From an uncultured bacterium (GTDB taxonomy: Bacteria; Edwardsbacteria; AC1; EtOH8), in NCBI GenBank assembly GCA_937863685.1, contig CALMGM010000005.1, forward strand, positions 124,001 through 188,000: 64,000 nucleotides of DNA. The letters run 5' to 3'. The notes below the pieces were generated by a model. That model did not search any database, was not told where the DNA came from, and saw only the letters and a program-made list of their open reading frames with translations. Positions 29,358 to 48,165 of the stretch are shown one piece after another. The position numbers were made by a program, and so were the translations under genes. Positions within the stretch are counted from its first letter, which is position 1; the number at the start of each line of letters is the position of its first letter.

Positions 29358-30422
29358 ATGCCCAAAATAGACGAATTGTTGAGATTGCTGGTCACCCAGC
29401 AGGGCTCCGATCTGCACATCAAATCCGGGGAGCCCCCGGTCTATCGGATCCACGGCCAGCTGGTCCGTTCCAGCCTTCCGGTGATGACCCCCGGCGACAC
29501 CCAGGAGCTGCTCTACGAGATCATGAATGAGGAGCGCCGCGAGCGTTTCGAAAAGACCCATCAGCTCGACATGTCCTACTCAATCCCCGGCGTCTCCCGC
29601 TTCCGGGTGAACGTCTTCCGCCAGAAACAATCACTGGGCGCTGTTCTCCGTGTCATCCCCCTGCTGATAAAAAGCATCGACGATCTGGGGCTTCCCCAGA
29701 ACATGAAGAAGATCTGCATGCTGCCACGCGGGCTGATCCTGGTGACCGGGCCCACCGGCAGCGGAAAATCCACCAGCCTGGCGGCCATGATAGATTACAT
29801 CAACGAGAACCGCTCCTGCCATATCATGACGGTGGAGGACCCCATCGAATTCCTGCACCGCGATAAGAAGGCCTGCATCAACCAGCGGGAGGTGGGCATC
29901 GACACCCACTCCTTTGCCAGCGCCCTCAAGCACGTGATGCGGCAGAACCCCGATATCATTCTGGTGGGCGAGATGCGTGACCTGGAGACCATCTCCCTGG
30001 CCATCACCGCGGCCGAGACCGGCCACCTGGTGATGGCCACTTTGCATACCGCCGATGCCGCCCAGACCATCGACCGGATCATCGACGTCTTTCCCCCGGG
30101 CCAGCAGCAGCAGGTCAGGCTGCAGCTTTCCACCACCCTGCAGGCCATTTACTCCCAGACCCTGCTGCCCCGGCTGGACGGCAAGGGGCGGGTGGTGGGC
30201 TATGAGGTGCTGGTCTGCATCCCGGCCATCCGCAGCATCGTCCGGGAGGGCAAGACCCACCAGATATTCAGCGTCCTCCAGAGCGGCGGAAAATTCGGCA
30301 TGAATACCCTGGACTCCTGCCTCAAGGAACTGTACCAAAAGGGGATTGTGACCATCGAGGAGGCCATGGCCAAATCCTCCAATCCCCAGGAGTTCGAAAA
30401 ATTAGCTATGAAGGCATTTTGA
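29358..30422 (+). CDS. PilT/PilU-type type IV pilus retraction ATPase, copy 1
   Basis: 354 residues, hexameric ATPase that drives pilus retraction. PAS-like N-terminal domain (about 1-100), Walker A GPTGSGKST (131-139), Asp box with ITVEDPIEF-like MTVEDPIEFLH, Walker B ILVGEMRDLETI and the PilT AITAAETGHLVMATLHTADAAQTIDRIIDVFP block. The AIRNLI(R)E-like motif shows as AIRSIVREGK. ATG at 29358 with GGGGGA upstream. It is followed after 3 bases by a paralogue. No other pilus gene is in the window. Confidence 0.93.
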   Translation: MPKIDELLRLLVTQQGSDLHIKSGEPPVYRIHGQLVRSSLPVMTPGDTQELLYEIMNEERRERFEKTHQLDMSYSIPGVSRFRVNVFRQKQSLGAVLRVIPLLIKSIDDLGLPQNMKKICMLPRGLILVTGPTGSGKSTSLAAMIDYINENRSCHIMTVEDPIEFLHRDKKACINQREVGIDTHSFASALKHVMRQNPDIILVGEMRDLETISLAITAAETGHLVMATLHTADAAQTIDRIIDVFPPGQQQQVRLQLSTTLQAIYSQTLLPRLDGKGRVVGYEVLVCIPAIRSIVREGKTHQIFSVLQSGGKFGMNTLDSCLKELYQKGIVTIEEAMAKSSNPQEFEKLAMKAF

Positions 30423-30425
30423 GAC

Positions 30426-31490
30426 ATGGAAATCGCCGAACTGTTAAAATTGATGGCCGAACGAGGGGCCTCCGATCTTCAGGTGAAGGTGGGCAGCCCC
30501 CCCCTGCTGAGGATCAACGGCGATCTTTTCCCCAGCCAGTTGCCGCCCGTCACCCCTGACGACGTTAAAAAATATTTGACGACCATCATCACCCCGGCCC
30601 AGGCCCAGAAATTCGGCCGTGAGCTGGAGCTGGATTTTGCCTATAACCTTACCGGCACCGGGCGCTTCCGGGTCAACCTCTTCCAGCAGCGCAACTCCCT
30701 GGGGATCGTCTTCCGGTTGATCCCCGAGAAGATCCCCACCATAGATGAACTGGGATTCCCCCCCATCGTAAAAGAGGTCTCCCTGCGGCCCCGCGGTCTG
30801 GTGCTGATAACCGGGCCGGCCGGTTGCGGGAAATCGACTACCCAGGCTGCTATGATTGATTACCGCAACGCCCACGACCCATGTCATATCATGACGGTGG
30901 AAGATCCCATAGAGTTCATCCACGGGGACAAAAAGGCCATCGTCAACCAACGGGAACTGGGGCGTGATACCCTGACCTTTGCCGATGCCTTGAAGTATGT
31001 GCTGCGGCAGGACCCCGATGTGATCCTGATCGGAGAGATGCGGGACCTGGAGACCATCGCCCTGGCCATCACCGCGGCCGAGACCGGGCATCTGGTGCTG
31101 GCCACTCTTCATACTACCGATGCCGTTCAGACGGTGGATCGTATCATCGACGTTTTTCCCATGCACCAGCAGGAACAGATAAGGATGCAGGTGGCTGTCA
31201 ATTTCGTGGCGGTGATCTCCCAGATACTGGTCAAACGGGCCGACGGGAAGGGCCGGGTGGCCTCTTTCGAGGTGATGACCGGCACCGGCGCGGTGCGCAA
31301 CCTGATCCGGGAGGGCAAGACCTACCAGCTACAGAGCCTGATCCAGACCAATATCAAACAGGGAATGACCACCCTCAACATGTCGTTGGCCAACCTGTGC
31401 CGCAAGAATATCATCACTTTGGACGAGGCCATGAGCAAATCCCCTGATCCTGACAACCTTCAGCAGGTTATGAAAAGCCATGCAATGTGA
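30426..31490 (+). CDS. PilT/PilU-type ATPase, copy 2, with variant Walker A
   Basis: 354 residues, same length as its upstream neighbour and homologous over its full length. Walker A reads GPAGCGKST (130-138), with Cys replacing Ser before the Gly-Lys-Ser-Thr. Walker B ILIGEMRDLETIALAITAAETGHLVLATLHTTDAVQTVDRIIDVFP is intact, as is AVRNLIREGK, which is the canonical PilT C-terminal motif (copy 1 deviates there). The pair may correspond to PilT and PilU, which act together. Terminator follows at 31503. Confidence 0.92.
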   Translation: MEIAELLKLMAERGASDLQVKVGSPPLLRINGDLFPSQLPPVTPDDVKKYLTTIITPAQAQKFGRELELDFAYNLTGTGRFRVNLFQQRNSLGIVFRLIPEKIPTIDELGFPPIVKEVSLRPRGLVLITGPAGCGKSTTQAAMIDYRNAHDPCHIMTVEDPIEFIHGDKKAIVNQRELGRDTLTFADALKYVLRQDPDVILIGEMRDLETIALAITAAETGHLVLATLHTTDAVQTVDRIIDVFPMHQQEQIRMQVAVNFVAVISQILVKRADGKGRVASFEVMTGTGAVRNLIREGKTYQLQSLIQTNIKQGMTTLNMSLANLCRKNIITLDEAMSKSPDPDNLQQVMKSHAM

Positions 31491-34790: not shown

Positions 34791-37376
34791 TTATCTTATC
34801 AGCATCACCTTTTTTATGGCGCTGGCACCTCCCGCCGACAGTCGGAACAGGTAGACCCCGTTGGGCACTGCATTCCCCGAACGATCCCGGCCATCCCACA
34901 AAACTTCGTATCGCCCCGCTTCCCTATTTTCACTGACCAAGGCTTTCACCAGCCGGCCGGCCACATTGTATATCGCCAGATTGACCGGCCCGGAAGCCGG
35001 CAGCTGATAGCTGAAAGAGGTCGTTCGATTGAACGGGTTTGGCCGGCTCTGGCTCAGTTTTAGGCCGGTCGGCATCAAGTTGCCTTCAGTTATCCGGAGG
35101 CTGGCCGGACCATAAAAGGTTTTATTGTCATTGAAGTCAAACTGGGCGATCCTGTAGTAATATGTGCCGGAGGGCAGCCTTTGGGGATCCGTAAAGGCAT
35201 ACTCCGATGGCTGATTGGTGGTCCCGTTTCCGGCCACCTCTCCGATCTTGACATACCCGGCAGCGGGATCATCGGTCCGTTCGATCTCCCATCTGTCGCA
35301 CTCCTTCTCGCTTTCGGTGCGCCATTTGATCTCGGCCCGGCCCTGGGCATCGGTACTTGCGGTTAAAAATGAAAACTGTACCGGATTGGGATATTTGTCG
35401 CTGCTGTTGACGGTAAAGGTGTCGGCCGTCACCTCTATCCAGATGTTGCTGCCCACCACTTCTCCCCGGCCCGGCGGAATGGTCCCGCCCGATCCCAGCT
35501 CCGTCTGGTAGATATAATTATTTGCCCCGGGATCGTTGCACAGCCGGTCCAGTGCCAGCTGGGTGGGATGCCCGTAGCCATTGTTCCCCACCGAGATGAC
35601 CGAGACCTTGGGATCCAGGGTGGATACCCAGTAGGGATTGCTGCTGTATTGCGAGCCGTGATGGTTGACATGCAGCACCGAAACCTTGCCCAGATCCGGG
35701 GCCAGGATTGATTCCACGTCCTTGTACCCGCCCGAATTATATCCCCCCAGATCGCCGGACACGATCATCTTGAACCCGCCGTATTGTACCAGCAGGGCCA
35801 CCCCGAAATCGTTCTCATCGGAGGGGGAAATATTGTCGCCGTAGGTCTGGCCGTTGATCGCCACGCATTTGGCGCTTACCCCGGCTCCCAGGTCTATCAC
35901 CTGACTCAGTCCGATGGTCTTCCGTTTGGCCCCCAGAACTGCTGCGTAATCGGTAAATGCCGTTGAGGCATAAGTTCCGCCCCGGTCATATCCCCAGCTT
36001 AAGATGGAATCCCGTCCTCCCAGGCTGTCTATCACTTCATCCATTCCGCCGATATGGTCCTCGTGATAATGATTGACCGCCGTATATTCCAGATGGTGGA
36101 GATTTACGCTGTCCCTCAGGAAAGGCCAGATCTTTCCGTATCCCTTGCCGGTCTCGCCGGCATCGAACAGCAGTGACTTTCCGGAGGGGGAAAGCACCAG
36201 GGTGGCATCGCCCTGCCCAACATCCAGGCAGATGATCTTCAGGGGAATGGTGGCCGGATCCGGTTGGGTGGCAAAACGGAAAGGATTGGGCTTGGGTCCC
36301 GGGACCAGGTCGTTGTTGGAAAGATCCTTGGCCGCGGTCACCTGGAATTTGTAGGCGGTCACATAGCTGAAATTATCGTGGGCCAGAGTGACCGTGTCGC
36401 CGGTGCCGTTCCAGGAGACAGACCAGCCGGCAGTTCCGGTGGAACAGCTGTAGGCAAAACTGGAAGGGTTGATGGCCTTGTTGAACCCGATCCTCACCGG
36501 GGAATTTATCGCGACATTGGCGGCATTGTTGGCCGGGGAAGTATAGATGATGGTAGGAACATTGGGCAGGATGTCGAAATTCACAGTATCGCCGGCGGTG
36601 ATGGTCCAGGGCGGAGTGCTTTTAACATAGAAGTTAACCGGATTGTCGGACATGTCCCGCACCTTGAAGGAGTCGATGGTCCCGGCCGGGGCCGTGAACA
36701 TCACATAGCCGGGATCGCCGGGATCATATCCTTCGACCACATCGTTGTTCTCGGTGATATAGGAGCAGACGATGGTGTCCGCCCGGTAGGCCAATACCAC
36801 ATGATTTGACAGCGGCGTGGAATATGACGGATCGACGTAGATATGGCCTTCCACCCAGGCCCCTTGTGTGGCCATGTCCATCACCGTAACAATTTGACGG
36901 GGCGAATCGCGGTTTGAACCGGTGGTCATGGTGTCTGCCAGTCTTCGGATCCTGGCCAGGATATATTGCGCCTGGGGGGTGGTATCGCACTTGGTGATGA
37001 ACCAGACCTTGGTGGTCTCTCCGGAATCGGCGGCGGCAATATGCCTGGAATTATAATATGCCGTCAGATCTCCGCCCCAAGTATTGCGTACTCCCGCATC
37101 CCAGGCGGTGCTGTCCTGCCAGTGAAAGTGGTTGTTCCCGGCAGTGGTGATGGAGCTCCCGATGCGGCATCTCCCCACAAAATTCTCACCAGTGGTGTCG
37201 GGCACTATCCCCACCAATACGGCAAAGGGATTCCCGGTTCCGGACGTTGCCTGGCCGGATATATAGGCAGGATATTTAAGAACGACAGCATTATCCGCGG
37301 CCAGAATTTGTCTGGCAAAGAATATCTGGGCAAAAAATATCATTAAAAGCGTTACCCTTTTCATAAACACCCGCAT
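34791..37376 (-). CDS. Secreted ComEC-type metallo-beta-lactamase with Ig-like domain and FlgD/T9SS-like C-terminus
   Basis: 861 residues. Signal peptide (cleavage after ILAA), N-terminal beta-rich region (28-270), a Big_5 Ig-like domain (about 275-370) and a metallo-beta-lactamase domain of the ComEC/Rec2 C-terminal type (about 380-650). That domain starts LDVGQGDATLV and has NHYHEDHIGG (His436, His438, Asp440, His441), SGDLGG (540-545), NHHGS (571-575) and GHPT (602-605). A fibronectin-like stretch (about 668-760) and a C-terminal sorting-type module (about 770-861, YNVAGRLVKAL...WDGRDRSGNAVPNGVYLFRL) follow. ComEC-type MBL domains are nucleases or phosphodiesterases; here no ComEC membrane part is present and the enzyme should act outside. 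Start is Met1 or Met5 (37364). Confidence 0.88.
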   Translation of the reverse strand: MRVFMKRVTLLMIFFAQIFFARQILAADNAVVLKYPAYISGQATSGTGNPFAVLVGIVPDTTGENFVGRCRIGSSITTAGNNHFHWQDSTAWDAGVRNTWGGDLTAYYNSRHIAAADSGETTKVWFITKCDTTPQAQYILARIRRLADTMTTGSNRDSPRQIVTVMDMATQGAWVEGHIYVDPSYSTPLSNHVVLAYRADTIVCSYITENNDVVEGYDPGDPGYVMFTAPAGTIDSFKVRDMSDNPVNFYVKSTPPWTITAGDTVNFDILPNVPTIIYTSPANNAANVAINSPVRIGFNKAINPSSFAYSCSTGTAGWSVSWNGTGDTVTLAHDNFSYVTAYKFQVTAAKDLSNNDLVPGPKPNPFRFATQPDPATIPLKIICLDVGQGDATLVLSPSGKSLLFDAGETGKGYGKIWPFLRDSVNLHHLEYTAVNHYHEDHIGGMDEVIDSLGGRDSILSWGYDRGGTYASTAFTDYAAVLGAKRKTIGLSQVIDLGAGVSAKCVAINGQTYGDNISPSDENDFGVALLVQYGGFKMIVSGDLGGYNSGGYKDVESILAPDLGKVSVLHVNHHGSQYSSNPYWVSTLDPKVSVISVGNNGYGHPTQLALDRLCNDPGANNYIYQTELGSGGTIPPGRGEVVGSNIWIEVTADTFTVNSSDKYPNPVQFSFLTASTDAQGRAEIKWRTESEKECDRWEIERTDDPAAGYVKIGEVAGNGTTNQPSEYAFTDPQRLPSGTYYYRIAQFDFNDNKTFYGPASLRITEGNLMPTGLKLSQSRPNPFNRTTSFSYQLPASGPVNLAIYNVAGRLVKALVSENREAGRYEVLWDGRDRSGNAVPNGVYLFRLSAGGASAIKKVMLIR

Positions 37377-37630: not shown

Positions 37631-40072
37631 TTATCCTTTTGCTTTTTTCAATGCTTCGATTTTTTGCCGGGTTTTCTCTAAATTTCTTTTAGCTTGGCTA
37701 TGTCCGGGATCGGCTGTCAATATTTTCTGCCAGATCCTTAAAGCTCCTTGATAATCCCCCAGGCTATAAAGTTTCGTGCCTTCTTTGTACAGTACATCTA
37801 TCTCGGGTTGGGATAATTTTAGGGTGGGCGGCTCCTTGGCCTTTATGGTCACCCTATCCTGCTGTTGGGAGGTCTTCCCTATCTGTCTTTCGCTTCCGGC
37901 GGACCTCGGTTTGGCTTCTGCTCTTGGGGCGGTATCTATTTTTACCGTACTGACTCCGCCGAACACCACTTTCTTTACCGGCCGGACCTTTTTTACCACG
38001 GCAAATTCGAGGTGGTTCGATATTTCCCCTTGCTTGATGTTTATCAGCCTGGCAGGTTCGCTTTTTAGCTCATAATCCGGTGGGATGCTATTGATGTCTA
38101 TATTCAAGGTCTGCTGGCCGGTGGGAGCATTTGTGATGCGGAACATACCGCCGCCGTTGGAAATTGCAGCAGTATTGGAGGGCTGTATTATAACCATAAC
38201 CCCGGACATTCCGTAATCGTCCCCGTCAAAAACCCCGTTATTGTTGTTGTCCACAAATACCCGCCCTTTAATGCCGCCCAAGGCCGAAACTGCAAAATTG
38301 ACCAAGGTGGAACGCCAGCCTCCCAAAGAAGCCTGCTTCTCCCCGGTGCCTATGATGTTGTATTCGGCCGAAAGGGTGGCCAGGTCTATTTTAACGGTTG
38401 GGGTGTTGCTGCTGATATTGGTAAAGAAATATTTCCCCTTGGCGTCGGTGATGGTCTTCCTGCCATTGGATAGATTCAAGATTACCCCTGGCAATCCAAA
38501 TTCACCGGCATCCTGAACGCCATTCTTGTTTGCATCCAGAAACACCATTCCTTCGATATCATTGCCGGAAATATCGATTCTTCTGGTTACGAACAGGCCC
38601 ATCCGGGACCTGTCACGCAGGTAGAAGAAGCCGGTATCCTGAGCGATATTGTTCTCGTTCCACCAGGAGAGATCCAGTAAATACTTTTTCGAAAGATTGA
38701 ATTTTAATTGCAAGCTGGCTATCAGGCTTCCATTTTTTATATCGCGCTGATCGCCCCGCTGATCGAAACCTATTTCAGCAATAGCCCGGCTTCCTCCCCA
38801 AAGCCCTGCATTGGTTCCGGCCCGGTATCGGTTGTAATATCCGGAGGTCGTCTTCTGGTTATCGCTCCACCGGTCGAATTCGCTGCTCAGCCAGAAAGTA
38901 ACCAGTTGTGACTGATATTGTGGCTTTATCGTCCAAAGATGTCTGGTGGCATCCATTGATCGGTAGATTATTTCTTCCCGGCTGTCAGCTTGATATTTTA
39001 ATCCCATTTCAAATTGGTTAAATTTTTGGGCCAACTCTATCGTTTGCCCGTCGGAAACATAGCGTCGAGCATTAGGCCCGCCCCAGTTAATTTTATTATC
39101 TCTATTAGTATAGCCGATCTTCAGCGAAGGAAGGTTCGATAATTTAAAGCTGGAACCCGCCCCCCAGGTGTTGGTGATCATGGGATAGAGGGTGTCACCG
39201 TCTGCATTGTAGTTGGTAAATCTTCCGTCCATCCTGATGATCTCATTGGGCCGCCAACTGGCGTAAATCCTGGGGCCATAATAATTCTTGGTCTGCAGAG
39301 GACGGAAATTGGCCCCCAGAAAGTCCAGGCCCCCCGAGAGACTGTATTTTTTCCCAGTCCAGGCGATATTGGCAGAAACCCAGGGAGCCGATCTGGAAAT
39401 GATAACTCCGGCCCTATCCTCTTGACGTTTCTTCCATGCAGTGGCCATCATTATATTGAAGCCCCAGGGCATTGTTACATCCATCTGCTGGCCGAATCCG
39501 GTTGCTTTCCGATAAAGGGAGTCGGCAGACACACTGCTGGATTCCTTATAGATGAATATCTTTTCAGAAAACCAATTGGCTGGTTTATAACCCAAGTATG
39601 AACCAAGCACATTGCGGCTGCTTACCGAAAGGCTTTTCCGGTAAAGGTCTGACGGGGTTCCTCCGAATATTCCGGCAGTCAAATTATCATGCTGATAATC
39701 GACATTGGCGCCCCGTATGCGGTTATTCCAGAGACCGGCATTGTAGGGTACGTTAACATTATTGTCTCCAATGCCTATATTAAGCAGGCTGTGGCCGAAA
39801 GCTATCTGGTTGAAACCAAGCTTGATGGTCTGAAGGTGTGTCTGGTCCAGACTGCTATAATACATCGAAAATTCGGAAAAAAGCTTAAAGTTGCCCATTT
39901 TCTTTTCCAAGGCACTTTTCAGGGTATGGCGGTATTCCTGTTGGCCGTAGTATTGCCCAACCAAGCTATTGCCCTCCTCAAAACCATAGGTAAAATAAAG
40001 CTGGTCCGCAGCCCAAATCAAGGCAGGGCCGGATATCAGCAGTATAAATATGATTTTAAGAAAGTTGCGCAT
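37631..40072 (-). CDS. Outer-membrane barrel protein with two SdrD-B-like domains and a C-terminal TPR tail (usher-like by context)
   Basis: 813 residues with signal peptide (to about residue 21). Residues about 22-500 are strand-rich, Tyr/Trp/Asn-rich and look like a large beta-barrel. Two prealbumin-like domains follow: IEGMVFLDANKNGVQDAGEFGLPGV (506-590) and IKGRVFVDNNNNGVFDGDDYGMSGV (600-690). Then a Lys/Pro-rich linker and a 57-residue TPR tail (757-813, LYSLGDYQGALRIWQKIL..DPGHSQAKRNLEKT). The tail is matched in the upstream chaperone-like protein (31 of 57 identical by eye). The order pilin-like - chaperone-like - barrel recalls chaperone-usher loci, but no classical usher plug or N-terminal domain is recognised, so 'usher' is an inference. 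Starts right after the chaperone stop. Confidence 0.75.
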   Translation of the reverse strand: MRNFLKIIFILLISGPALIWAADQLYFTYGFEEGNSLVGQYYGQQEYRHTLKSALEKKMGNFKLFSEFSMYYSSLDQTHLQTIKLGFNQIAFGHSLLNIGIGDNNVNVPYNAGLWNNRIRGANVDYQHDNLTAGIFGGTPSDLYRKSLSVSSRNVLGSYLGYKPANWFSEKIFIYKESSSVSADSLYRKATGFGQQMDVTMPWGFNIMMATAWKKRQEDRAGVIISRSAPWVSANIAWTGKKYSLSGGLDFLGANFRPLQTKNYYGPRIYASWRPNEIIRMDGRFTNYNADGDTLYPMITNTWGAGSSFKLSNLPSLKIGYTNRDNKINWGGPNARRYVSDGQTIELAQKFNQFEMGLKYQADSREEIIYRSMDATRHLWTIKPQYQSQLVTFWLSSEFDRWSDNQKTTSGYYNRYRAGTNAGLWGGSRAIAEIGFDQRGDQRDIKNGSLIASLQLKFNLSKKYLLDLSWWNENNIAQDTGFFYLRDRSRMGLFVTRRIDISGNDIEGMVFLDANKNGVQDAGEFGLPGVILNLSNGRKTITDAKGKYFFTNISSNTPTVKIDLATLSAEYNIIGTGEKQASLGGWRSTLVNFAVSALGGIKGRVFVDNNNNGVFDGDDYGMSGVMVIIQPSNTAAISNGGGMFRITNAPTGQQTLNIDINSIPPDYELKSEPARLINIKQGEISNHLEFAVVKKVRPVKKVVFGGVSTVKIDTAPRAEAKPRSAGSERQIGKTSQQQDRVTIKAKEPPTLKLSQPEIDVLYKEGTKLYSLGDYQGALRIWQKILTADPGHSQAKRNLEKTRQKIEALKKAKG

Positions 40073-41146
40073 CTAACCTTTTATCTTTTTTAACGCGTCA
40101 AGTTTGGCCTTGGTCCTTTCCATGTTTTTTCTGGCGGAGGTATTTCCGGGGTCGGCCTTCAAAAGTTTCTGCCAGGTGGACAACGAAGATTGATAATCTC
40201 CCACCGTATATTGCTTGGTGGCCAGACTATAGAGGCTCTTTATCTCTTCTGGAGATAGTTTGACAACCGGCTCTATCGGTTTAGAGACTTTGCCTGATGT
40301 TTTAATTGGATTTTTGGGCTGCGGGATCGGCCAATCGTGTCTGGGAACTTCTGCCGCCACCAGATTGACCATGGTCTCTCCAGACAAAATCTCAGCTCCT
40401 CCGTAATCGACCATGGCAACCAAGTTGTAGCTGCCGGGTTTTATGTTGGCAAGTTGGATCCGAAAGATCCGTTCGGAATTTGGCAGAACCGCTTGATTCT
40501 CTTCATTGATGGCCAATTTATCAACCGTCCAGCCATCAACAGTTTGTATTTCCACCGTACCACTAGGGCGGGTCAAAATGTTTCCTTTATTTAAAAATCC
40601 CAGTTCTATCTGGGCAGTGTTGGCTTTACTTGTATTGTTCAATGATAGCGAACTCAGTTCTCCGTCCTTGTACCCAGTGCCGGTAATGTTGATAACGAAC
40701 AGGGTTCCTACCCTGACAGTCAGCCTGCTTCCGCTTCCTCTGGTGGCATCCTGGGGCTTGGTATGAAAAAATATCGCAGCCAGATGTGTCCCTAAAACAT
40801 TGTCCGGAACTTTGAGAGTGTAGCGGACCTTTTGTCCTGCCCCTTGAGAAAGGAAAAAATTCTCAGGATTAATTAATATCCATGATTCGCATGAAGTAGG
40901 TAGTGTCCCCCCTTCCGGGAAAAGCAATTCCCCGTATTTATCCATGTTTATATCGGTAATATAGCCATAAACCTGGATTTTTTCTCTTCCCTTGTTATCA
41001 ACATTAATAACTCCAGTACGGCTTTCACCGGGCACAACATTCAAGTCAACTTTGGGAGGCCAAACATTGAGTGAAATGACCCCTTGGCCCCAGGCTCCAG
41101 TGGCAATATATAAGGCTAATGTTATAGAAAAAGTGGTCTTTTTCAT
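40073..41146 (-). CDS. PapD-like periplasmic chaperone with C-terminal TPR tail
   Basis: 357 residues. Signal peptide (about 1-20), then two Ig-like halves in the style of fimbrial chaperones: VWPPKVDLNVVPGESRTGVINVDNKG...INPENFFLSQGAGQKVRYTLKVPDN...LAAIFFHTKP (21-~150), and a second half to about 270. The strand GQKVRYTLKVP is the place where pilus chaperones hold the subunit. Unlike those chaperones it has a Pro-rich linker and a 57-residue TPR tail (301-357) like that of the barrel protein. It lies between the pilin-like gene and the barrel gene, with a leaky terminator-like hairpin upstream. Assignment to COG3121-like chaperones is from pattern only. Confidence 0.75.
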   Translation of the reverse strand: MKKTTFSITLALYIATGAWGQGVISLNVWPPKVDLNVVPGESRTGVINVDNKGREKIQVYGYITDINMDKYGELLFPEGGTLPTSCESWILINPENFFLSQGAGQKVRYTLKVPDNVLGTHLAAIFFHTKPQDATRGSGSRLTVRVGTLFVINITGTGYKDGELSSLSLNNTSKANTAQIELGFLNKGNILTRPSGTVEIQTVDGWTVDKLAINEENQAVLPNSERIFRIQLANIKPGSYNLVAMVDYGGAEILSGETMVNLVAAEVPRHDWPIPQPKNPIKTSGKVSKPIEPVVKLSPEEIKSLYSLATKQYTVGDYQSSLSTWQKLLKADPGNTSARKNMERTKAKLDALKKIKG

Positions 41147-41172
41147 GTTATCAAGTAATTGTTATTAAAGCC

Positions 41173-41208
41173 AAAAACGGGGCACCGCTTTAATAAGTGA
41201 TGCCCCGC
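41173..41208 (-). terminator. Imperfect terminator/attenuator between pilin-like and chaperone genes
   Basis: On the minus strand a stem CGGGGCA-C...G-TGCCCCG (arms about 41199-41208 and 41177-41186, one mismatch) is followed by five T (41177-41173). It lies 18 bases after the pilin-like stop. Partial read-through would give more subunit than assembly protein. Confidence 0.6.
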
Positions 41209-41225
41209 ATTGCAAAGCAAAATGC

Positions 41226-41738
41226 TTACGGAGTTGCAGTCAATGTGTAGGTGATGGTATTGGTGTAAACGCCAGCGACAGCAGGAGCAGGAACAGTAAG
41301 GCTTAAGGTAGTGGTCAGGGCTGTTCCGGCACCCAGGTTCTTGTATTCAGCAGCATCCGCGGTATACGCTGTGGTCGGAAGCAAATTGAAAGTGCCATTT
41401 GCCCAGACACCGGCTCCTCCGCTACCAGCATACGTAAAGTTGGCTGACGGGAATACTTCGCCGGGAATGGTCGTGTTGGTCAGATCTTGATCCTTGTTGA
41501 GTTTCAAATACCAAGCGATCTTTTGGTTGGTCCTGACTGTAGCGACTATGTCTGCTGGCGTAGCAACATCACCCGGTTCCAAGATGCCAAAATCGACGGC
41601 GTTGTTATCTAACGTTAATGTCCAAACACCGTTGACTGTGACCTGAACATCAACATTACTGGTTACGTCTGCAGGTTGAGCTATTGCAAAACCCGCAAAT
41701 AGTGCGACTACTAAGCTGGCAAGTAACAGTTTTTTCAT
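41226..41738 (-). CDS. Secreted pilin-like / surface subunit protein
   Basis: 170 residues from the ATG at 41738, which has a near-perfect AAGGAGG 5 bases upstream; a longer frame further out is not needed. Signal peptide MKKLLLASLVVALFAGFAIA, then a strand-rich, Thr/Ala/Asn-rich chain without Cys or Lys-rich patches. The ending GVYTNTITYTLTATP is like the last strand of DUF4402/spore-coat-U-type subunits handled by chaperone-usher systems. A strong ribosome-binding site and the downstream hairpin suggest abundant production. The upstream 490 bases have no gene. Confidence 0.72.
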   Translation of the reverse strand: MKKLLLASLVVALFAGFAIAQPADVTSNVDVQVTVNGVWTLTLDNNAVDFGILEPGDVATPADIVATVRTNQKIAWYLKLNKDQDLTNTTIPGEVFPSANFTYAGSGGAGVWANGTFNLLPTTAYTADAAEYKNLGAGTALTTTLSLTVPAPAVAGVYTNTITYTLTATP

Positions 41739-42230
41739 TTTACCTCCTTGTTTGTTTAGTTGATAATTATTTTTAATTTGATGCCTTGACAATAATTGCA
41801 TGCAATTTTTATTCCCATTTGACCGCAACATCCGTTCTACAATATTTTGTAATCCCTTTATGAAAATACACCATATTTAGATCTCTGAAAATCATTCCCT
41901 TTTATATGTGCAAATTCTTCTCTTGCGTTTTGCATATCTATAATTTACAGATTATTAATAATGATACATAAAGATAATTTTTCATAAATTGAAATAGTCA
42001 TTATCCATTGAATACTTAATGGGCTGGAATTCCAGTAAACCGAAGTAGCTGGCAAGCTACATCTTTTATGATGTGCCTTGATTTGTTTTACTATCGAGAT
42101 TGCATCAAGTTATACTGGCCCTCATGGCGGGCAAAAGCACTGGGTAGATCAGGGCGACCTCCTGCGTTAATTATTATGAGCGCCCCGATTGCTTTGCTAT
42201 TGGAGCTTACAACAAACTATGGAGCCTATA
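41739..42230. other. Gene-free A+T-rich stretch upstream of the pilin-like gene
   Basis: No credible gene. It holds the long 5' region of the pilin-like gene, including palindrome TTGCATGCAA (about 41795-41804), a GTAGCTGGCAAGCTAC inverted repeat near 42047, and a 13-base copy (42155-42167) of an internal piece of the neighbouring tRNA-Val. Short open frames here run into the tRNA and are not believed. Confidence 0.6.
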
Positions 42231-42308
42231 TGGTGGGCGATGAGGGGATCGAACCCCCGACCTCCTGCGTGTAAAGCAGGCGCTCTAACCAAGCTGAGCT
42301 AATCGCCC
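42231..42308 (-). tRNA. tRNA-Val (anticodon TAC)
   Basis: Minus strand: acceptor stem GGGCGAT / ATCGCCC (42308-42302 and 42241-42235), D arm TAGCTCAGCTTGGTTAGAGC, anticodon stem CCTGC/GCAGG with loop TTTACAC (anticodon TAC), T arm with GGTTCGATCCC, discriminator A and an encoded CCA (42233-42231). It decodes GUA. No tRNA neighbours. Confidence 0.97.
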
Positions 42309-42395
42309 AATGATAAATAAAAGCCTTTGTGTAATTGTAGTATATATCATTTGGTGCCGATTTGTCAAGCAAAGTCCAGCCTGGAAATATAAACC

Positions 42396-42427
42396 AATAG
42401 CTAAGGATCTATCTTTCCTTAGCTATT
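42396..42427 (-). terminator. Probable terminator after the small secreted protein gene
   Basis: Perfect 12-bp arms AATAGCTAAGGA / TCCTTAGCTATT (42396-42407 and 42416-42427), 8-nt loop, with GGTTTATATTT following on the minus strand. The T run is weak. Confidence 0.6.
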
Positions 42428-42493
42428 TCATAACCTCTCCTTACTGCTTTATGGTTTACACTTATATGTAAAACATGGAAACAATAATCCTGA

Positions 42494-42991
42494 TCATTTC
42501 GGTTCTGCCACAAATGAGGCTTCAAACTGATAATCCCCAATCGGCGCGCTTTCGGCAAGCATATATCTTACATCCAGAGATACTTTGGTGCCTCTCTCGA
42601 CCTTATAACTTTCGTATATGTCGTGCAAACTCCCATTGGCTTCACAAAAATCCTTTTCTCCTGACAACCTATACAGTATTTTGCCTTTTATCTCATTGTT
42701 CGGAGGTTCTATCTGACCCATTATCCTTGCCCCATCGACACTATTGCACCACACTTTAAGAACAATAGCTCTAGGCAGGTCAACATAACCTCTGGCCTTG
42801 TCCTCATTGCTGATATTTAACGCATTTGATGCGCTTAGAACTTCAATCCTGGCCTTTTTGGCTATGCTTACCGATATATTAACTGTCCGGGATACATCGC
42901 TGGGGGTCAACAAAGCAACAGTTTGGCTGTATCCCAACTTTGCGCTTATCATCAGAACCATGATTGATATTATTTTGACATGCTTTTTCAT
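42494..42991 (-). CDS. Small secreted protein, possible second pilin-like subunit
   Basis: 165 residues. Signal peptide to about residue 22 (ending LGYSQ), then a strand-rich domain with two Cys (in KVWCNS and KDFCEAN), which could form a disulfide. The end SAPIGDYQFEASFVAEP resembles the end of the pilin-like protein at 41226 (PAPAVAGVYTNTITYTL) in spacing and pattern, and the N-terminal VSRTVNISVSIAKKARIEV fits subunits of the DUF4402/coat-U kind. ATG with GGAG 6-7 bases upstream. It is separated from the chaperone locus by the tRNA-Val and its own terminator, so it is transcribed apart. Role is inferred from pattern and position only. Confidence 0.6.
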   Translation of the reverse strand: MKKHVKIISIMVLMISAKLGYSQTVALLTPSDVSRTVNISVSIAKKARIEVLSASNALNISNEDKARGYVDLPRAIVLKVWCNSVDGARIMGQIEPPNNEIKGKILYRLSGEKDFCEANGSLHDIYESYKVERGTKVSLDVRYMLAESAPIGDYQFEASFVAEPK

Positions 42992-44256: not shown

Positions 44257-45474
44257 TCAATTGGTTTTCAGCACCCCCAGTTTCTTGCCGACTTTTGTAA
44301 AAGCTTCGATGGCCTTGTCCAAATGTTCCCGCTCATGGGCCGCCGATATCTGCACCCTGATCCGGGCCTTGCCCCGCGGCACCACCGGATAGAAGAATCC
44401 TATCACATATATGCCCTCGTCGTAAAGCATCCGGGACATCTGCTGGACGGTCTCGGCCTGGTGTAGAATGATAGGCACTATGGGGTGTATCCCCTCCCGG
44501 ATGGCAAACCCGGCCTCGGTCATCTTCTGCCGAAAGTACAGGGCGTTGCTCATCACCTTGTCACGGAGGGCGGTGGAGCCCTGCATCATTTCAATCGCCT
44601 TGATGGTGGCGGCTACTACTGACGGGCTGATGGTGTTGGAGAACAGGTAGGGCCGGGAACGCTGGCGCAGGATATCCACGATCTCCTTGCTGGACGACAC
44701 GCAGCCGCCGGAGGCCCCGCCCAGGGCCTTGCCAAAGGTGGTGGTGATGATGTCCACCCGGCCCATCACGTCAAAGTGCTGGTGGGTTCCGCGGCCGGTG
44801 GGACCCACGAACCCGCTGGCGTGGCTCTCGTCCACCAGCACCATGGCCTCGTATTCTTCCGCCAGGTTGCAGATCTGTTCTAAAGGAGCCAGATCGCCGT
44901 CCATGGAAAAGACCCCGTCGGTGACGATCATCCTAAAGCGCTTGTTCATGGTCTGCTTCAGGTGATTTTCGAGATCGTGCATGTCCATGTGCTTGAAGCG
45001 GCGGCGCTCGGCCTTGCATAGGCGGATGCCGTCGATGATGGAGGCGTGGTTCAGCTCGTCCGAGATCAGGGCGTCCTCCTCGCCCAGCAGGGCCTCGAAC
45101 ACGCCCAGGTTGGCGTCGAAGCAGGAGGAATACAGGATGGCGTCCTCCATCCCCAGGAATTTTGAGATCTTCTGTTCCAACTCCTTGTGCTTGTCCTGGG
45201 TGCCGCAGATGAACCGGACCGATGACAGCCCGAAACCCCGCTCCTCCAGGCCCTTCTGGGCCGCGGCCACTATGGCCGGGTGGCTGGAGAGTCCCAGGTA
45301 ATTGTTGGCGCAGAAGTTGATGACCTCCTTCTGGGGCGAGTTGGGCGGGTATTCCACCTTGATGCTGGCCGCCTGGGGCGTGTGAATGTAGCGCTCCTCC
45401 TTGAAAAGATCGGCGTTTTTGAGTTCCACCAGTTCCTGACGGTAAAATTCCTTTACCTTGATGTGAAGTGCCAT
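44257..45474 (-). CDS. kbl: Glycine C-acetyltransferase (2-amino-3-ketobutyrate CoA ligase)
   Basis: 405 residues, PLP-dependent alpha-oxoamine synthase. It converts 2-amino-3-ketobutyrate and CoA into glycine and acetyl-CoA, or the reverse. The sequence follows E. coli Kbl closely, with INFCANNYLGLSSHP, SVRFICGTQD, YSSCFDAN, SDELNHASIIDG (Asn142-His143), VDESHASGF (Asp215, His218) and the PLP lysine Lys249 in TTFGKALGG. It should work with the threonine dehydrogenase at 52249. A second, diverged copy is at 46918 and a third family member at 59236. The next gene upstream is an A+T-rich membrane ORF not related in function. Confidence 0.94.
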   Translation of the reverse strand: MALHIKVKEFYRQELVELKNADLFKEERYIHTPQAASIKVEYPPNSPQKEVINFCANNYLGLSSHPAIVAAAQKGLEERGFGLSSVRFICGTQDKHKELEQKISKFLGMEDAILYSSCFDANLGVFEALLGEEDALISDELNHASIIDGIRLCKAERRRFKHMDMHDLENHLKQTMNKRFRMIVTDGVFSMDGDLAPLEQICNLAEEYEAMVLVDESHASGFVGPTGRGTHQHFDVMGRVDIITTTFGKALGGASGGCVSSSKEIVDILRQRSRPYLFSNTISPSVVAATIKAIEMMQGSTALRDKVMSNALYFRQKMTEAGFAIREGIHPIVPIILHQAETVQQMSRMLYDEGIYVIGFFYPVVPRGKARIRVQISAAHEREHLDKAIEAFTKVGKKLGVLKTN

Positions 45475-46917: not shown

Positions 46918-48165
46918 CTATAACCCGTACTTGGCTATGATCTCGTCCTTCTTCAGCCCCAGTATCCCGTACTTCTGGCCGATCTTGGTGAAGGCCGCCA
47001 GGGCCTTGTCCAAATGCTCCATCTCATGGCCGGCCGAGATCTGGGTCCTTATCCGGGCCTGCCCCTGGGCCACCACCGGGAAGAAGAAGCCCGTCACGTA
47101 GATGCCCTCGTGGTACAGGTCGCGGGCGATGTCCTGGGCCAGCTTGGCGTTGTACAGCATCACCGGGACGATGGGGGTGTCGCCCTGCTTAAGGTCGAAA
47201 CCGGCCTTGGTCAGGCCTGCCCTCCAGTAGGTGGTGTTCTTCTCCAGCTTGTCCCTGCGGTCGGTGGATTTGGAGAGGATCTCCAGCACCTTTAGCGATC
47301 CGGCCACCACCGCCGGGGGCATGGTGTTGGAGAACAGGTAGGGACGGGCCCGCTGCCGGCACATCTCGGCGATCTCCTTGGGACCGCTGACCGATCCGCC
47401 GGTGGCGCCGCCCAAACCCTTGCCGAAGGTGGTGGTGATGATGTCCACCCGCTTCATCACGTTATGGTACTCGTGGGTGCCCCGGCCGGTCTTGCCGATG
47501 AAGCCGGTGGCGTGGGAGTCGTCCACCATTACCATGGCGTCATATTTGTCGGCCAGGTCGCAGATCTTATCTAATGGCGCGATGTCGCCGTCCATGGAGA
47601 ACACCCCGTCGGTGATGATCATCCGCAGACGGCAGCTCTGGGCCTCCTGCAGTTTCTCCTCCAGGTGGGACATGCTGTTGTGCTTGTAGTTGAACATCTG
47701 GGCCTTGCACAGCTTCAGCCCGTCGACGATGGAGGCGTGGACCAGCCGGTCGGAGATCATGGCATCCTCCGGGGTCAGCACCACGTCGAACAGCCCGGCG
47801 TTGGCTTCCATGCAGGAGGGGAACAGGCAGGTGCCCTCCATGCCCAGGAATTCGCTCATCTTGATCTCCAGCTCGTTGTGAATGTCCTGGGTGCCGCAGA
47901 TGAAGCGGACCGAGGACAGCCCGTAGCCCCTCGAATCCAGGGCTTCGTGGGCCGCCTTGACCACCTCGGGGTGGCTGGACAGACCCAGGTAATTATTGGC
48001 GCAGAAGTTCAGCACCTGCTTGGGCTCGGCCCCCTTGGGGAACTCCACCTTGATGCTGGCGGCCTGGGGCGACTGGATGAAACGCTCTTCCTTGAAGATC
48101 CCCTTGTCCTTCATCCCCTGCAGTTCGCCGGCATAGAAATCCTTGGCTTTGGAACTATAGGCCAT
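46918..48165 (-). CDS. Kbl-like alpha-oxoamine synthase, diverged paralogue beside ACP
   Basis: 415 residues. PLP-dependent, homologous to the kbl product at 44257 over its full length. Lys249 (TTFGKGLGG), Asp215 and His218 are kept. Differences near the active site: LNHAS becomes LVHAS (Val142 for Asn142), and YSSCFDAN becomes FPSCMEAN. A 10-residue C-terminal extension (KKDEIIAKYGL) is added. These changes, together with the adjacent acyl carrier protein, ligase and AcpS genes, suggest that it uses a different acyl donor (perhaps acyl-ACP) rather than repeating Kbl. ATG with GGAGGAAG upstream. Activity is inferred, not shown. Confidence 0.85.
   Translation of the reverse strand: MAYSSKAKDFYAGELQGMKDKGIFKEERFIQSPQAASIKVEFPKGAEPKQVLNFCANNYLGLSSHPEVVKAAHEALDSRGYGLSSVRFICGTQDIHNELEIKMSEFLGMEGTCLFPSCMEANAGLFDVVLTPEDAMISDRLVHASIVDGLKLCKAQMFNYKHNSMSHLEEKLQEAQSCRLRMIITDGVFSMDGDIAPLDKICDLADKYDAMVMVDDSHATGFIGKTGRGTHEYHNVMKRVDIITTTFGKGLGGATGGSVSGPKEIAEMCRQRARPYLFSNTMPPAVVAGSLKVLEILSKSTDRRDKLEKNTTYWRAGLTKAGFDLKQGDTPIVPVMLYNAKLAQDIARDLYHEGIYVTGFFFPVVAQGQARIRTQISAGHEMEHLDKALAAFTKIGQKYGILGLKKDEIIAKYGL

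Follow-up and report, generated by a model that had tools for sequence, protein, structure and literature searches.

Gene organization of the locus

The window analyzed here is a 64,000-nucleotide stretch of DNA from an uncultured bacterium of the Edwardsbacteria lineage (assembly GCA_937863685.1, contig CALMGM010000005.1, positions 124,001–188,000 of the forward strand), whose genome (G000) comprises 2.72 Mb. Between positions 37,631 and 42,991 of the window lies a locus that we read, with a probability of about 0.7, as a divergent chaperone-usher-type assembly operon, bridging the WxLIP proteins and the PapD chaperones. As seen in the sequences or in structural models, the locus encodes small exported proteins, a chaperone with two immunoglobulin (Ig)-like domains that is related to WxLIP and PapD, and a FimD/PapC-like barrel with two C-terminal domains. 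The order of transcription, on the minus strand, is a 165-amino-acid (aa) exported protein, tRNA-Val, a 170-aa exported protein, the chaperone and the barrel. The chaperone and the barrel both end in a tetratricopeptide repeat (TPR) tail. The argument below builds on the gene order, the modelled folds, the homologies and the conservation of the tails. The features are as follows, with the evidence in brackets (ORF, open reading frame; AF2, AlphaFold2).

37631–40072, minus strand: usher-like outer-membrane barrel protein, 813 aa (ORF; AF2 model; Foldseek; PF00577 unmatched)
38573–40003, minus strand: beta-barrel region, residues 24–500, starting directly after the signal peptide, plug-less, with a GD...RG motif (model, alignments)
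37991–38551, minus strand: two periplasmic SdrD_B/CarboxypepD-type beta-sandwich domains, residues 508–694 (PF17210, E 1.8e-16; PF13715, E 2e-8; model)
37634–37819, minus strand: C-terminal TPR tail of the barrel, residues 752–813, three predicted helices, preceded by a linker of low confidence at 698–751 (model, tail alignment)
40073–41146, minus strand: WxLIP/PapD-like periplasmic chaperone, 357 aa, immediately before the barrel gene with zero gap (ORF; profile; Foldseek; hhalign)
40358–41077, minus strand: the two Ig-like domains of the chaperone, residues 24–263 (model, pLDDT 88)
40076–40261, minus strand: C-terminal TPR tail of the chaperone, residues 296–357, three predicted helices (model, tail alignment)
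41226–41738, minus strand: small exported pilin-like protein, 170 aa, starting from an ATG at 41738 that follows an AGGAGG site and ending in AGVYTNTITYTLTATP (sequence, family alignment, Pfam WxL E 0.09)
42231–42308: tRNA-Val, between the two small exported-protein genes
42494–42991, minus strand: the other small exported protein (165 aa), past tRNA-Val (ORF; kept at the same place in g1 genomes)

The ORFs, strand and coordinates agree with the ORF listing. An earlier reading of the letters alone (the sequence-only reading) had placed two pilin-like proteins upstream, one near and one past the tRNA, and two small exported proteins do lie there: 79 bases separate the gene of the 170-aa protein from the chaperone gene downstream of it, and the 165-aa protein is kept at the equivalent position in three other g1 genomes. 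Of the named relatives, Candidatus Edwardsbacteria DeMMO3_1 (76% identity) and Prado126 (29%), and UBP2 UBA4780 (53%), are nearest. The family of the source genome is represented by ten genomes (G000–G009), and L numbers denote loci.

The chaperone is related to both WxLIP and PapD

The AF2 model of the chaperone (31 sequences; predicted local distance difference test (pLDDT) 88) consists of two Ig domains at residues 24–263 and three helices at 299–356. The two-domain Ig chaperone fold is present in this model, with Foldseek and VIA matches to CfaA, CsuC, Caf1M and PapD. In Foldseek, the ranking is WxLIP (3e-13), CfaA (1.8e-11), CsuC (3.7e-10), DraB (2.4e-9) and PapD-PapH (9.4e-9), with SafB between DraB and PapD, and VIA likewise places WxLIP first (Z 17.2, root-mean-square deviation (rmsd) 5.6, 230 aligned), followed by CfaA (13.3; 5.6, 197) and Caf1M (13.2; 5.5, 184). 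The sequence profile (31 rows) matches EfmWxLIP1 (PDB 9i25, in which WxLIP is bound to a long WxL) over both domains with an E-value of 2.4e-12, and EcpB with 0.02. Comparison with five E. coli K-12 chaperones by hhalign gives a probability (Prob) of 94.4 and an E-value of 9.4e-8. The sequence-only reading had called this protein PapD-like; the PapD-type similarity stands, while PapD as the nearest relative is displaced by WxLIP, the closest solved structure.

In sequence, the PapD-type relationship is visible only by profile-profile comparison. Searched alone against Pfam, the window chaperone matches neither the PapD family nor PF06030; one of its relatives does match PF06030 (33.6 bits vs a cut-off of 27.3). 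The single chaperone found no relative among the genome contigs, and a profile of five close rows named the phylum. For WxLIP, strand insertion into WxL has been predicted, and the protein ends in a membrane helix (PMC10599100); the words "chaperone", "usher" and "PapD" did not occur in a search of its text.

The barrel resembles FimD/PapC ushers in fold

The AF2 model of the barrel (11 sequences; pLDDT 78) shows 26 strands at residues 24–500, two beta domains, a low-confidence linker and a helical tail. The 16 best Foldseek hits in the PDB are all FimD/PapC ushers (E 1.3e-17 to 1.3e-6), and the first non-usher is MtrB (1.7e-6). The longest of the alignments to ushers extend over about 790 columns and span the barrel and both C-terminal domains, so that the two periplasmic beta-sandwich domains at 508–694 fall inside the stretch aligned to full-length ushers. 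These are the two SdrD-B-like domains of the sequence-only reading, recovered by PF17210 in two stretches. As its suggestion of an unrecognised system implied, the Pfam usher model PF00577 misses the window barrel.

An invariant GD...RG motif, at residues 102–103 and 120–121 of the window barrel, precedes the plug site in all 11 Edwardsbacteria barrels; it is complete in 10/21 family-wide rows, and present in two of four E. coli ushers (FimD and YehB). No plug is found in the 11 Edwardsbacteria sequences. Three relatives in other lineages, with an operon of the same kind (L067, L145 and L146), carry an insertion directly behind the GD...RG site, and this stretch matches the usher plug and the following strands (hhalign Prob 89.6, E 1.9e-6; LptD control 0.1). 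Searched against 177,635 PDB sequences, its five best matches are FimD, at an E-value of only 0.23. In the phylum of G036, plug-bearing barrels were found in 1/17, namely G036 itself. On the basis of these models and alignments, we take the barrel family to be a divergent usher relative, whose members in Edwardsbacteria have neither plug nor N-terminal domain.

The TPR tails are an Edwardsbacteria module

The chaperone and the barrel had been reported to end in one 57-residue TPR tail with similar KLS-P/Q linkers. The count is exact, with 31/57 identical positions in an ungapped alignment, and the linkers start at chaperone residue 296 and barrel residue 752. The BLOSUM62 score between the tails is 194 (mean of 1000 shuffles, 24.6; maximum, 45), and a whole-genome search with the chaperone tail recovers the barrel tail (E 1.1e-17, 52% identity). 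The C-terminus of the chaperone is a Lys-rich three-helix TPR module. All ten family genomes carry the tail on chaperone and barrel alike: it ends 11 chaperones and all 11 barrels with a complete C-terminus, since G009 holds two systems, and a twelfth family barrel (L063) is interrupted by a contig end. In G004, G006, G007 and G008, the barrel stands between two chaperones, a tail-less one ahead of it and a tailed one behind. The tails are retained while overall identity falls to 20–35%, and W, DP and further positions in them are conserved. Outside the family, none of the outgroup chaperones examined has the tail at its C-terminus, and outgroup barrels show no significant match to the tail section of the barrel profile. 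On the sequences compared, the tails are an Edwardsbacteria addition to the assembly system.

The tail is also found beyond the pair. In G000 it ends two adjacent paralogous small barrels that have CarboxypepD and PEGA domains and lie next to an SLBB protein, with no chaperone adjoining (848757–850699 on contig C5; L009 8171–12248), and such TPR-tailed small barrels are present in all ten family genomes. In G004, G005 and G007, a barrel protein that is PorV-like by eye has about six TPRs, the last of which resembles the tail. These occurrences rule out that only the chaperone-pore pair has the tails. Chaperone and barrel tails share a mean identity of 50–52%, vs 38–46% between either and the tails of other outer-membrane proteins, a figure of 38–41% applying to the other barrels. 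Because it is found on the small barrels and the PorV-like protein, the tail is best described, from sequence comparison, as an outer-membrane-protein module of the lineage, with the chaperone-barrel pair as its closest-knit part.

In trees of the protein bodies, chaperones and barrels both divide into type I (G000–G003, G005 and G009) and type II (G004 and G006–G008). The tails group crosswise: type I chaperone tails (G000–G003) with type II barrel tails (support 95/99), and type I barrel tails with the chaperone tails of G006/G008 (91/99). A tree that unites every chaperone tail in one clade is rejected (p-AU 0.024, 62 columns). A crosswise a/b partition fits with p 0.60, a descriptive value since the partition was named after the first tree. 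That tree includes the long-branched G009b tails, which the second omits, and places the G005 chaperone tail at an unexpected position. The crosswise grouping is as would be expected from exchange within a matched pair, but it is drawn from 62 columns, and gene conversion would give a similar picture.

Tail-less versions occur in other lineages

The two-domain chaperone profile (A4, E 1e-6) detects 66/389 genomes, eight in the family and 58/381 outside it. Among 24 outgroup loci (L066–L069 and L103–L122), 16 show an SdrD-pair barrel downstream of the chaperone on the same strand, 0–655 bases apart or slightly overlapping. L117 has a diverged downstream barrel below the threshold of this count, and L145 and L146, fetched for their barrel matches, stand outside it. 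Row set A6 excludes tandem double-domain proteins, L106, L107, L120 and L122; row set A10 excludes L116–L119, L066 and L122. None of 29 carrier genomes contains a PF00577 usher, with a positive E. coli control. Some outgroup chaperones end in SPOR (L104, E 1.9e-10; L106, 0.005) or Dockerin_1 domains (L118, L119 and L122; 2e-6 to 1e-7), and the outgroup barrels of L108 and L111 carry TPR-like and T2SS-T3SS_pil_N stretches, weak or near the cut-off, at the opposite end. The unrecognised assembly system of the sequence-only reading holds up in its chaperone-usher character and in its invisibility to Pfam, but the system is not peculiar to tails, as tail-less versions are spread across other lineages. 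Neither outcome that would have overturned that reading, a barrel of an unrelated family without chaperone neighbours in relatives or the loss of tails from all relatives, was observed.

At two loci, L112 (5057–6304 and 6943–10895; G320) and L068 (6494–13271; G055), single and tandem double-domain chaperones and small exported proteins lie beside a short secretin. The secretin (PF00263, E 5e-47 and 1e-37) stands in place of the SdrD barrel, and these loci are possibly, judging by their genes, a chaperone-secretin variant. Archaic chaperone-usher systems extend to Cyanobacteria and Deinococcus-Thermus (PMC4654587), and the broad spread of chaperone-usher pathways as such is already known.

Neighbouring genes

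In the type II locus L060 (3325–6249; G006), a 974-aa beta-helix protein with an FlgD_ig/type IX-like C-terminus is encoded ahead of the pilin-like genes. In the window, a metallo-beta-lactamase-like protein with Big_5 and an FlgD_ig/type IX-like C-terminal sorting domain is encoded just downstream of the barrel (34791–37376). Two PilT-type-ATPase-like genes, recognized by eye, adjoin the locus (30030–31490), and G001 has the same neighbours. Two near-alike pyridoxal-phosphate-type acyltransferase/synthase-like genes, also recognized by eye (405 and 415 aa), occupy 44257–45474 and 46918–48165. A PADLOC search gave no match.

Alternative explanations

Several observations weigh against a chaperone-usher system. 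The Foldseek TM-scores between barrel and ushers are low (0.20–0.46, rmsd 11–25 Å), and VIA, which compares geometry, ranks MtrB first (Z 19.7, rmsd 5.3, 441 aligned), followed by FimD and PapC (16.9) and many porins (14–16). The barrel sequence profile (18 rows, of which L067 alone bears a plug) finds no match in four ushers of E. coli (Prob 2.8, as against 0.3 for the LptD and 0.2 for the BtuB control). Ushers have 24 barrel strands, as against 26 in the model, and the N-terminal chaperone-recruiting domain of ushers is absent, with the strands beginning at residue 24. The outgroup locus L103 has neither this domain nor a tail. The profile of the pilin-like proteins has no significant match to a known pilin or WxL domain in the PDB and Pfam. 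The surface fibre is a prediction. The barrel might be unrelated to ushers, an MtrB-like or porin-like protein that has only beta-barrel geometry and the common SdrD domains in common with them, as the VIA ranking and the unmatched profile would suggest. We consider this improbable: the best Foldseek hit to an usher, which covers barrel and C-terminal domains, surpasses the MtrB hit by some 11 orders of magnitude, three relatives carry the plug insertion, and the chaperone adjoins the barrel in relatives too. An Ig protein that stays in place as the structural anchor of small surface proteins, with a barrel that only displays or exports them and no fibre polymerisation, in short a diderm version of WxL/WxLIP, would fit WxLIP being the closest solved relative, bound to WxL in 9i25. 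It would also fit the weak match of the window pilin to PF13731 (E 0.09, in one of 20 rows), the anchoring-type SPOR and Dockerin_1 C-termini in other lineages, and the membrane-helix C-terminus of WxLIP itself. This is nevertheless unlikely, since the usher-like barrel next door, the several small subunits at many loci and the FimD-like plug-bearing relatives point to a subunit-export pore.

The role of the tails, mutual docking or a shared envelope partner, is a separate matter, on which the data lean strongly to neither side. Tail-to-tail docking is no more than plausible, because the same tail also ends outer-membrane barrels without a chaperone. There is close to an even chance that the tails do not pair, and instead form a general Edwardsbacteria module by which outer-membrane proteins are fixed, through their periplasmic parts, to a shared partner in the envelope. 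The tailed small barrels of all ten family genomes (next to the SLBB protein in G000), the last repeat of the PorV-like protein and the tail-less chaperones that coexist in four genomes favor such a partner, whereas the greater mutual closeness of chaperone and barrel tails and the apparent crosswise exchange of two tail types speak for a matched pair. That the tail likeness is a functionless by-product of recombination between neighbouring genes is most improbable; the tails do interleave in the tree as gene conversion would give, but both are kept in all ten genomes despite the low overall identity, with the W and DP positions preserved. Since L103 lacks both, a general role of tails as substitutes for the usher N-terminal domain is ruled out.

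Proposed mechanism and implications

In chaperone-usher biology, subunits are held by strand complementation, handed over at the C-terminal domains of the usher and exported through the barrel; PapD-type chaperones complete subunits by an edge strand. By analogy with these chaperones and with the WxLIP-WxL complex of 9i25, the chaperone of the chaperone-usher-type operon proposed here would complete each small subunit with an edge strand, and the loaded chaperone would bring this subunit to the side of the barrel that faces the periplasm. Having neither N-terminal recruiting domain nor plug, the barrel would then export the subunits by strand exchange into a surface fibre. In Edwardsbacteria, the tails may raise the local concentration of the loaded chaperone at the barrel C-terminal domains, acting either by mutual pairing, at somewhat below even odds, or, at nearly even odds, by binding the common partner.

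A wider scheme, tentative and on balance doubtful, would be a widespread diderm pathway, missed by present family models, whose WxLIP-type chaperones pass pilin-like subunits on to a mostly plug-less SdrD usher relative or, in some lineages, to a small secretin. Common descent would link the monoderm WxL and the chaperone-usher systems, and complementary Edwardsbacteria tails "a" and "b", exchanged in evolution, would dock chaperone to pore.

Catalogues of chaperone-usher systems have relied on models of the PF00577 usher and of PapD, and the carriers tested have no PF00577 usher. What appears to be new is a branch that lacks this usher, has chaperones of the WxLIP type and, in one phylum, bears TPR tails in pairs; the combination was not found in the literature as covered by titles and the starts of abstracts, a body from which most subscription journals and all bioRxiv preprints are missing. 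If the reading is true, surface-fibre assembly of the chaperone-usher type would be far commoner than annotation shows, given the share of sampled outside genomes with the chaperone profile. The monoderm WxLIP proteins and the diderm PapD chaperones would be opposite ends of a single family, and the tails would make testable how a loaded chaperone locates a pore lacking the N-terminal recruiting domain.

Comparison with known systems

The window barrel is similar in size to the 26-strand porin of the MtrB type, which has the top VIA score; to our knowledge, MtrB-type porins have no SdrD domains and no chaperone neighbour. For the chaperone, the best profile and fold match is WxLIP (DUF916/DUF3324; PDB 9i25 and 9i1y; PMC10599100), which has two Ig-like domains in the same order and is encoded together with small exported proteins. 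WxLIP sits on the surface of monoderms, ends in a membrane helix and has WxL partners, whereas the protein here is from a diderm, ends in a TPR tail and is paired with an outer-membrane barrel, and no WxL domain is significant. PapD/FimC-type chaperones (class 5 CfaA, archaic CsuC, and EcpB) share the boomerang two-Ig fold, with the hhalign Prob of 94.4, and a gene that adjoins pore and subunits; unlike them, the Edwardsbacteria chaperone carries a TPR tail and has no PapD Pfam match. Unlike the FimD/PapC ushers (PF00577), the window barrel has no PF00577 match, N-terminal domain or plug, and has 26 modelled strands, SdrD/CarboxypepD-type C-terminal domains and a TPR tail; a plug is shared with ushers by three of its relatives only. 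With these ushers, its top 16 Foldseek hits, it shares the arrangement of a large outer-membrane barrel followed by two periplasmic beta-sandwich domains.

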